From Haloferax litoreum (GTDB lineage Archaea; Halobacteriota; Halobacteria; Halobacteriales; Haloferacaceae): a DNA stretch of 64,000 nt. The DNA is taken from NCBI RefSeq assembly GCF_009674605.1, contig NZ_WKJO01000001.1, positions 1,178,001 to 1,242,000 of the forward strand. Direction: 5' to 3'. A program made the translations under genes and the position numbers. The notes under the pieces were generated by a model. That model did no database searches. It was not told the DNA's origin and saw only the letters and a program-made list of their open reading frames with translations. Positions 21,669-62,756 of the stretch are shown piece by piece; within the stretch, counting starts at the first letter, position 1, and each line of letters starts with the position of its first letter.

Positions 21669-21776
21669 GGGCTGGTAGCTCAGTTAGGCAGAGCGTCTGG
21701 CTTTTAACGGGGCTACGCAGGTTGCGTGGTTTCGGAAGACACCAGACGGTCGGGGGTTCAAGTCCCTCCCAGCCCG
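21669..21776 (+). tRNA. tRNA-Lys(UUU) with a 34-nt intron
   Basis: The acceptor stem GGGCTGG (21669-21675) pairs with CCAGCCC (21769-21775), with discriminator G21776. Anticodon TTT is at 21703-21705. An intron interrupts the anticodon loop after position 37: exon 1 ends at A21706, the intron is 21707-21740, and exon 2 resumes at A21741. The archaeal splicing endonuclease motif is visible: CTTT (21701-21704) pairs with GAAG (21735-21738), flanked by 3-nt bulges TAA and ACA, with outer helix CTGG/CCAG. The mature anticodon loop becomes CTTTTAA. A TATA box lies at -29. Confidence 0.95.
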
Positions 21777-21816
21777 TTCTTACATTCGCGAGCGACAGCG
21801 AGCGATAGTCGAACTA

Positions 21817-21883
21817 CTGGGAGGACTTGAATCAGGGAGCGAACGGAGTGAGCGACTGAGGTTCACGTCTCTCCCAGCCCGTT
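21817..21883 (+). repeat. tRNA-Lys-derived hairpin (inverted plus direct copy of the tRNA 3' end)
   Basis: CTGGGAGGACTTGAATC (21817-21833) is an inverted copy of the tRNA-Lys T-arm/acceptor. GTTCACGTCTCTCCCAG begins a direct copy (21861-21883) matching the tRNA at 21 of 23 bases, including the two bases after the tRNA end. The two arms can form about 16 bp (7, then a U bulge, 3, one mismatch, 6). The 26-nt loop contains GGGAGCGAACGGAGTGAGCG. The unit starts 40 nt after the tRNA and ends in GTTTT, a possible terminator. Confidence 0.75.
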
Positions 21884-59672: not shown

Positions 59673-59698
59673 TTCGTCGCAGAATGCGCCGACCGGGA
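59673..59698 (-). repeat. Direct copy of the tRNA-Gly 3' end and trailer
   Basis: TTCGTCGCAGAATGCGCCGA-type sequence matches 59837-59862 at 25 of 26 positions. It covers the last 14 bases of tRNA-Gly plus 12 bases of its 3' trailer. It is the second, more distant copy of the tRNA end. Confidence 0.7.
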
Positions 59699-59757
59699 CT
59701 CACGCGAGCGAAGCGAGTGTGAGTACGTCGGGTAGCGAACGTAGTGAGCGAACCGAC

Positions 59758-59808
59758 GGGAATTGAACCCCAATCGCTCCCTTGCGGTCGCTCCTTGATT
59801 CAATTCCC
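59758..59808 (-). repeat. tRNA-Gly-derived hairpin (inverted plus direct copy of the T-arm)
   Basis: On the minus strand GGGAATTGAATC (59797-59808) pairs with GGTTCAATTCCC (59758-59769) over 12 bp, with one G-U pair. Both arms derive from the tRNA-Gly T-arm. The enclosed 27-nt loop reads AAGGAGCGACCGCAAGGGAG then CGATTGG, similar to the tRNA-Lys loop. The unit starts 40 nt after the tRNA end. The inverted copy can be extended to 59821. Confidence 0.75.
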
Positions 59809-59848
59809 TCCGGAGCGCATTCGCTCCTCACATTCGTTCGTCACAGAA

Positions 59849-59919
59849 TGCGCCGACCGGGAATTGAACCCGGGCTTCGAGCTTGGGAAGCTCGTGTCCT
59901 ACCACTGGACCATCGGCGC
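59849..59919 (-). tRNA. tRNA-Gly(CCC)
   Basis: A 71-nt tRNA on the minus strand. The 7-bp acceptor is GCGCCGA/TCGGCGC with discriminator A. The anticodon stem CGAGC/GCTCG encloses the loop TTCCCAA, giving anticodon CCC. The T-loop is TTCAATT. No intron. The sequence GTTATC at 59945-59950 is a TATA candidate on the minus strand, 27-32 bp upstream of 59919. Confidence 0.93.
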
Positions 59920-60018
59920 ACGTCGCTTCGCTCGTGCCCCGAGCGTTATCTTACTTCGTTCGACAACACATCGGCGCTCATCTCATTCGCACTGGGCTCG
60001 ACCTTACTTCGTTCGGTC

Positions 60019-60040
60019 GACCATGGCGCACATCGCTTCG
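60019..60040 (-). repeat. Partial copy of the tRNA-Gly 5' end
   Basis: GACCATGGCGCACATCGCTT resembles 59908-59930, the 5' end of tRNA-Gly plus upstream bases, with one deletion and one substitution. A 13-nt CTTACTTCGTTCG repeat (59950 and 60003) lies in the same stretch. The region 59920-60180 contains no gene, and duplicated pieces occur on both sides of this tRNA. Confidence 0.5.
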
Positions 60041-62523: not shown

Positions 62524-62595
62524 GCCTGGGTAGCTTAGCGGTAAAGCGCGTCCTTGGTAAGGACGAGAGCCCGGGTTCAAATCCCGGCCTAGGCT
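62524..62595 (+). tRNA. tRNA-Thr(GGU)
   Basis: A 72-nt tRNA. The acceptor is GCCTGGG/CCTAGGC (one G-U) with discriminator T. The anticodon stem CGTCC/GGACG encloses the loop TTGGTAA, anticodon GGT. No intron. The T-loop is TTCAAAT. Archaeal tRNA-Thr typically carries discriminator U. Confidence 0.95.
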
Positions 62596-62630
62596 TTCTG
62601 CGAGGAACATCGTGACGAGCAGAAGCCGTA

Positions 62631-62694
62631 GCCGGATTTGAGCAGCGAGCAAATCTCCGATTTGCGAGTGAGTTCAAATCCCGGCCGAGGCTTT
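62631..62694 (+). repeat. tRNA-Thr-derived hairpin (inverted plus direct copy of the tRNA 3' end)
   Basis: GCCGGATTTGAGC (62631-62643) pairs with GTTCAAATCCCGGC (62672-62685) over 13 bp with one bulged C. The direct copy runs to 62694 and matches the tRNA at 22 of 23 bases. The 28-nt loop contains its own hairpin, GCAAATC/GATTTGC (62649-62655, 62659-62665). It starts 35 nt after the tRNA and ends in CTTTTT, a possible terminator. Confidence 0.75.
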
Positions 62695-62756
62695 TTCTGA
62701 AACTCACCATCGCGAGCTGTCGATGTCACTTATTCAGACAGCGAACACGCCCCAAA

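Follow-up and report, generated by a model that had tools for sequence, protein, structure and literature searches.

Short non-coding units lie directly behind tRNA genes of haloarchaea, on the tRNA strand, singly or in arrays, and they vary between sister species. All three tRNA genes of the window, the 64,000-nt stretch of the 3.56-Mb Haloferax litoreum genome (G000) analysed here, carry such a unit immediately 3′, with its parts in the same order (Table 1): a first hairpin, H1; an inverted copy of the T-loop and 3′ T-stem, I; a structured loop, L2; and a direct copy of the tRNA 3′ end, D2, whose counterpart within the tRNA is its own tail, D1. We tentatively read these units, at a probability of about 0.4, as tiny cassettes exchanged at the T-loop, in which I-L2-D2 would be a folded, single-stranded recombination site similar to those of integrons. 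The anatomy of the units matches no known element or family among those tested. The window's NadE shares 99% identity with its Haloferax profundi counterpart, and a 2.3-kb stretch is 95% identical.

Table 1. Positions, within the window, of the three tRNA genes and of the parts of the units behind them.
Feature	Position	Strand	Basis and remarks
tRNA-Gly (CCC)	59848..59920	-	ARAGORN; Rfam 59849-59919; tail D1 (GTTC to last base) 59849-59869
Gly H1, potential hairpin directly 3′ of tRNA-Gly	59812..59848	-	By reading
Gly I, inverted copy of T-loop and 3′ T-stem	59797..59808	-	Sequence; pairs with D2 in fold
Gly L2, structured loop with 2x2 internal loops, separating I from D2	59769..59796	-	Fold
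Gly D2 part 1, direct copy of T-loop and 3′ T-stem	59753..59768	-	Sequence
Two extra inverted repeats splitting Gly D2	59698..59759 (59726-59759; 59698-59724)	-	By reading; not formed as such in fold
Gly D2 part 2, direct copy of 3′ T-stem and acceptor 3′ strand	59685..59697	-	Sequence
Beginning of another H1 (remnant) past last Gly tail copy	59673..59684	-	By reading
tRNA-Thr (GGT)	62524..62595	+	ARAGORN, Rfam; tail D1 62575-62595
Thr H1	62596..62627	+	Fold (z -4.6 for 62596-62700)
Thr I	62631..62643	+	Fold
Thr L2	62644..62671	+	Fold
Thr D2	62672..62692	+	Sequence
Intron-bearing tRNA, read as Lys (TTT)	21669..21776	+	Rfam; tail D1 21756-21776
Lys H1	21777..21813	+	By reading of sequence
Lys I	21819..21833	+	Sequence
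Lys L2	21834..21860	+	Loop comparison
Lys D2	21861..21881	+	Sequence

A first-pass annotation of this DNA had described a hairpin on the minus strand at tRNA-Gly, and its coordinates hold: GGGAATTGAATC at 59797-59808 stands opposite GGTTCAATTCCC at 59758-59769, enclosing the 27-nt loop that was noted. The stem does have 12 bp, but it was called perfect and is not, since it is made of 11 Watson-Crick pairs and one G.T wobble. The further tail copy reported at 59673-59698 is identical to 59837-59862 at 25 of 26 bases (96%), and the tRNA-Lys to which the hairpin had been likened is a real counterpart, with an Rfam match at 21669-21776 (+) and the same arrangement behind it. The arrangement is shared by tRNA-Thr (62524-62595), which went unmentioned. 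By itself the Gly locus is only moderately unusual: of 50 other tRNA ends, 1 does at least as well as its own for the direct copy and 3 do so for the inverted copy. It fails the strict hairpin test used below because D2 is interrupted and leaves no direct copy of sufficient length. The minimum-energy RNA fold of the 175-nt Gly segment contains the I:D2 stem and L2, but H1 is engaged with sequence farther downstream; a calculation with DNA energies retains the I:D2 stem and loses the L2 steps. Both hairpins form in the fold of the Thr unit.

Other features of these tRNA genes were seen in passing. Upstream of tRNA-Gly, at 59918-60030 (-), GA-loop hairpins with variable stems can be read, with loops GAGCGAAGCGA and GAACGAAGTAA; the leader of H. 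volcanii tRNA-Gly-CCC is described as exceptionally long, at 300 nt, in PMC4983044. Introns were read in the Lys(TTT) tRNA at 21669-21776 (+), which ARAGORN missed and Rfam found, and in an Asn(GTT) tRNA of the same genome (L042, G000:C1:559639-559742).

The recurring tRNA-linked hairpin is confirmed and is far wider than one tRNA. Our strict test asked whether the T-arm of a tRNA recurs within 350 nt downstream, first inverted and then direct, and in the control the arms of other tRNAs were substituted for its own. Such own-arm hairpins stand behind 16 of 52 tRNA genes in the window's genome (1.4 expected from the swap), 18 of 52 in G011 (2.9 expected) and 16 of 42 in G058, from another family (2.2 expected), and none was found in the 300 nt upstream of the tRNA genes in these three genomes. 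Inverted sites alone are weak evidence (23 own against 9.2 expected in G000), because the swap control shares the conserved T-loop. In other classes of the phylum, 24 tRNA loci in 11 genomes, which are the best-scoring tRNAs and no random draw, held no inverted, direct or hairpin sites; they are what was left of 28 loci when two haloarchaeal loci and two cut by contig ends had been dropped.

Motif searches point to the same place. Of 146 genomes of the order, 47 contain one form of H1, GCGACGAACGNANGTGAGGAGC, with 85 occurrences in all, and its reversed pattern turned up not once; the exact form is absent from all 19 genomes of the window's own family in this set, the window's genome among them. 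In all 30 loci examined a same-strand tRNA precedes it, at a distance of 3 to 281 nt, and ten more stretches, hand-picked mostly where matches to the motif cluster, likewise have a tRNA upstream (nine by ARAGORN, the tenth by Rfam), giving 40 of 40 examined. The L2 core GCGAGCGAACGAAGTGAGCGAGTGA, allowing up to 3 mismatches, is found at 5 places in the window's genome, all 5 downstream of tRNA genes by their coordinates. The 10-mer AGTCGCAGCC showed no enrichment over its reversed control in five genomes and is therefore no marker of units by itself. At the gathering score, Rfam matched only tRNA and RNase P RNA in the window, and only tRNA in 22 further loci.

Broader descriptions of the hairpins were considered and rejected. 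Hairpins scattered genome-wide independently of tRNA genes do not fit the 13 G.A-flanked mini-hairpin matches in the window, as the four with stems are all at tRNA loci (a long outer stem at 59706, short ones at 21841, 59737 and 59923); the remaining nine score below 1 for an outer stem, and a stricter mini-hairpin scan gave no GA/GA case. Nor is H1 supported as a general trailer hairpin of tRNA genes; a G.A hairpin in the first 70 nt tracks units unevenly among genomes: 9/13 with units against 7/35 without in G000, where the second class includes some units missed by the finder, 12/17 against 3/25 in G058, and 3/22 against 4/30, no association, in G011.

The edges of the unit were located in 125 units at 109 tRNA genes, out of 248 distinct tRNA loci, a set that is usable for structure and not for frequency because part of the loci was gathered through the H1 motif. 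The unit finder sought 11 nt of I (≤2 mismatches) and 15 nt of D2 (≤3 mismatches) and, being ungapped, may overlook units whose D2 has an additional base. Across the set, the stretch in which D2 corresponds to the host tRNA opens with the G of GTTC and closes with the final base of the tRNA. Position by position, identity to the host is 0.94-1.00 in the first 12 bases, 0.78-0.90 in the last 9 and at most 0.46 beyond them; left of GTTC the similarity is that of unrelated tRNAs. Since the search itself fixes the first 15 positions of D2, the free evidence consists of the edges and the last 6 positions. I is complementary over ~11 nt of T-loop and 3′ T-stem, a length that equals the search window, and has fallen to 0.36 by position 12. 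Both I and D2 fit the host tRNA better than they fit other tRNAs, and the first base of a unit directly follows the tRNA or the previous tail copy.

Some variants of this plan were noted. We considered I as a complete inverted copy of tail and trailer, which describes some units (the best being L228, in G058), but the average complementarity ends at ~11 nt. H1 reaches into the acceptor end with modest enrichment (8/52, 7/52 and 10/42 against 2.6, 2.6 and 2.1 expected). At one site of the T-loop copy D2 recurrently has an extra base (C, G or T, as in TTCA-N-AATC) that the tRNA itself lacks, seen at L022, L036, L031, L176, L315 and G011:2473113, and this base would bulge from the I:D2 stem.

The hairpins share a structural signature. 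When L2 is folded alone, 92 of 105 2x2 internal loops are GA/GA (mean 3.5, maximum 7 in 20 dinucleotide shuffles), and in folded H1 regions the count is 100 of 116 (maximum 8 in 20 shuffles); the antisense strands of L2 and H1 regions give 1 and 3 GA/GA loops, placing the tandem G.A on the tRNA-sense strand. Among 30 distinct type II L2 loops standard pairs fill 172 of 178 cells of the paired columns, where 300 shuffles, with relatedness ignored, never exceed 147, and each of the six pairs shows double changes; the type I/V loops, also 30 in number, have 115 of 120 cells paired, against at most 103 in shuffles, again with relatedness ignored. These counts support conserved pairing without proving it. 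The hairpin thus has what is expected of an integron site, a conserved structure with free stem sequence.

The same signature would suit a structured trailer RNA, co-transcribed with the tRNA and acting in trailer stability, in termination or as a small RNA freed by tRNase Z at the tRNA end, with arrays arising by ordinary recombination between the 21-bp tails. We regard this reading as doubtful, though an RNA role is nearly as likely as integron-like exchange. It is consistent with the tRNA strand being used in 30 of 30 loci, with a start at the base after the tRNA, and with G.A tandems and covariation of the kind found in RNA; three units fold better as RNA than their shuffles (z -3.3, -4.6 and -2.4), and the steps of Gly L2 form with RNA and not with DNA energies. 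Sense-strand G.U pairs in the I:D2 stem also outnumber A.C mismatches (68 against 26), but this wobble excess is due to the two positions next to L2 and is gone elsewhere in the stem. Moreover, most tRNA genes lack a unit by the strict test and sister species differ, and a hairpin would not need the D2 copy of the acceptor strand that extends past the reach of I.

Loops and arms combine in different ways. The same 30-nt L2 sits on differing arms at two neighbouring tRNA genes of G011 and at the tRNA-Gly of two named species, H. massiliensis and H. sulfurifontis, and 29 unit pairs, many of them near-copies of the same loci, have L2 within 3 mismatches of each other and arms that differ. Exact loop types are narrow in range, given that this L2 with its arms (a 45-mer, ≤3 mismatches) was found in 2 of 146 genomes, both of them Haloferax. 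One tRNA-Gly is followed by a five-unit array in the order A-B-A-B-C, one tRNA-Val by two units with a common H1 and different L2, and the longest array, of units 117-130 nt long, reaches ~620 nt. Single N bases within unit repeats in contigs of H. gibbonsii and H. prahovense (L097, L099) suggest that arrays trouble genome assembly.

Units also differ between close relatives. The first-pass annotation had proposed comparing the flanks of tRNA-Gly between related strains, and across 12 named Haloferax species the array there ranges from several units to no complete unit, as in H. mucosum and H. denitrificans; the copies, whose absence from all close relatives would have marked a one-off duplication, are thus represented by units in related Haloferax. 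At tRNA-Thr a unit stands in the window, in H. gibbonsii and in H. massiliensis; H. sulfurifontis has a decayed one, and H. prahovense, H. marisrubri and H. denitrificans have none. At these empty sites the sequence directly 3′ of the tRNA clearly resembles what follows D2 in H. gibbonsii and H. massiliensis. In the tree H. gibbonsii and H. prahovense are sisters, as are H. sulfurifontis and H. denitrificans, and loss through recombination between the 21-bp tails accounts for these differences as well as gain would. The earlier suggestion that the element spreads or is repeatedly rebuilt fits the many isotypes, several families, tandem arrays and sister-species differences, which may be gains or losses.

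Rebuilding could also be purely mutational, with template switching or snap-back copying near the palindromic T-arm yielding direct-inverted-direct blocks, the very order seen in the units, and with I and D2 kept matched by quasi-palindrome correction. The recurrence of H1 and L2 motifs across families is hard to reconcile with such an origin, as are the mismatched G.A steps, which are kept and not corrected, and the score of 0 in 24 tRNAs in other classes of the phylum; we consider it very improbable.

A more familiar source of tRNA-tail copies is the integration of proviruses or plasmids by tyrosine integrases, and the units could be ordinary att scars of elements formerly resident in the tRNA genes. 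D2 is the tRNA 3′ end, a classic att site, and so provides the direct downstream copy that a scar should leave; the haloarchaeal tRNA genes examined do host integrase elements. Element genes, however, do not lie between the copies, 144 of 151 tail copies being within 350 nt of the tRNA, 98 of these with I. Seven lie farther away: L101 (357 nt, with I), two in the L128 array, a 2-mismatch match in L031 at 1.1 kb, and L109, L126 and L127, 1.5-1.6 kb away and lacking I. An integrase-bearing element of 9.4 kb, its ends lacking I, sits at a tRNA of G058 that was read as Glu; the distal copy of this element shares ~67 nt with the tRNA and lies upstream of two cassettes, which follow this copy and not the working tRNA. 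As neither the far tail copies nor the ends of this element have the inverted T-arm, the units are not simply prophage att scars, and that origin, which also leaves unexplained the presence of I, the G.A hairpins and the sharing of L2 between tRNAs, is improbable.

No gene-carrying cassette was found in flanks of mostly 1.5 kb, where tail copies preceded by I are all within 357 nt of the tRNA, and Phage_integrase (PF00589) had no match within the window. With 217 nt as the query, covering one unit and most of the next, blastn had no match in plasmids or phages; an 801-nt query of a five-unit array with its tRNA matched three haloarchaeal megaplasmids and no phage. The units seen on plasmids stand behind tRNA sequences only, and one of the megaplasmid places consists of tRNA-Gly and a unit. 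By reading, a Natrinema thermotolerans megaplasmid (L391) has a tRNA-Glu-like gene, not called by ARAGORN, that is interrupted near the anticodon and followed by a unit, and a Natronococcus plasmid (L390) has a tRNA-Gly-like part with a broken T-arm and no unit behind it. Scanning viral contigs with a 16-mer yielded 58 loci, and none passed the context test. Two resident recombinases were scanned against integron integrase: L375 scored 19.9 bits against a cut-off of 265, and L374 had no match. An XerC/D-like family is common to three compared genomes, L374 and L357 being 97% identical in two Haloferax genomes and 46% identical to L376, with relatives of L374/L357 at ~38-46% identity in G000, G011 and G058; L374 falls far under the curated cut-offs of the named XerC, XerD and XerA models. 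As the enzyme acting on the units, this recombinase is only a candidate.

In the integron-like reading, recombination at G|TTC of the T-loop would insert and remove cassettes, the tRNA tail D1 would be the landing site, comparable to attI, and the sense-strand I-L2-D2 hairpin would be the folded recombination site of the cassette, comparable to attC. Because the tRNA must stay functional, a cassette would have to bring the host's tail with it, and this would account for the match of D2 to its own tRNA; I, having to pair with D2, would match the host for that reason. What we offer for exchange is the D1/D2 block running from GTTC to the last base, the host-matched I and D2, the G.A hairpins on the sense strand and the covariation in L2, together with shared L2 loops, swapped modules, occupied and unoccupied tRNA-Thr sites, larger elements devoid of I and candidate recombinases. 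Against the integron analogy, H1 has no role there, and the integron R-box consensus differs from the T-loop GTTC. D1 and D2 are moreover 21-bp direct repeats, so that precise loss and changes in the arrays could come from ordinary homologous recombination. Also speaking against this reading are the lack of a Phage_integrase match in the window, the lack of gene cargo in the flanks searched and of phage-borne cassettes in the scans made, and the loss of the Gly L2 steps with DNA energies. A bolder version, which we think rather unlikely, would make the tRNA genes of haloarchaea platforms of an integron-like system whose cassettes are pure structure, tiny hairpins exchanged as folded single strands at the T-loop, with arms re-templated from the tRNA entered; the same loop could then sit behind different tRNAs.

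Whatever their mode of origin, the units are a recurrent, structured and fast-changing element flanking essential genes in several haloarchaeal families, and they caution that haloarchaeal tRNA-tail repeats are not automatically prophage scars. If exchange were true, single-strand hairpin recombination would extend to an archaeal system anchored on tRNA genes; an RNA role would mean a new class of tRNA-linked non-coding RNA. In the titles and abstract openings of the open-access literature we found no description of these tRNA-tail hairpin units.

Several known systems resemble the units in part. Tandem 178-bp repeats follow the tRNA gene at E. coli tyrT, each with the tRNA 3′ end; to our knowledge these are confined to one locus and one group and have no inverted T-arm or G.A hairpins. 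The att duplications left by tRNA-integrating elements, through archaeal tyrosine recombinases, likewise double the tRNA 3′ end on a strand fixed to restore the tRNA, but the units have no genes between copies, add an inverted T-arm and G.A hairpins, and use a 21-nt block in place of the ~67 nt that the ends of the G058 element have in common. Haloarchaeal PATEs, MITEs and small mobile repeats are also short and non-coding, and PATEs have palindromes near their ends; as described in the excerpt of PMC3119063, they are dispersed, with end or target features of the transposon type, and are not linked there to tRNA tails.

Integrons come closest. Their cassettes, like the units, form ordered arrays of short units each ending in an imperfect hairpin, and PMC2727003 describes attC structure as kept over variable stem sequence, with ~9-11 paired outer bases and a variable terminal structure, features that the units share. 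Arrays and fixed boundaries are present at the units. The likeness reaches the letters of the R-box, in the inner arms AAC...GTT and the G|TT boundary. Unlike integrons, the units have a tRNA T-loop as landing site, with no integron integrase found and no coding cargo seen; the strand that folds is the tRNA strand, the outer arms follow the host tRNA, and the hairpin H1 comes first.
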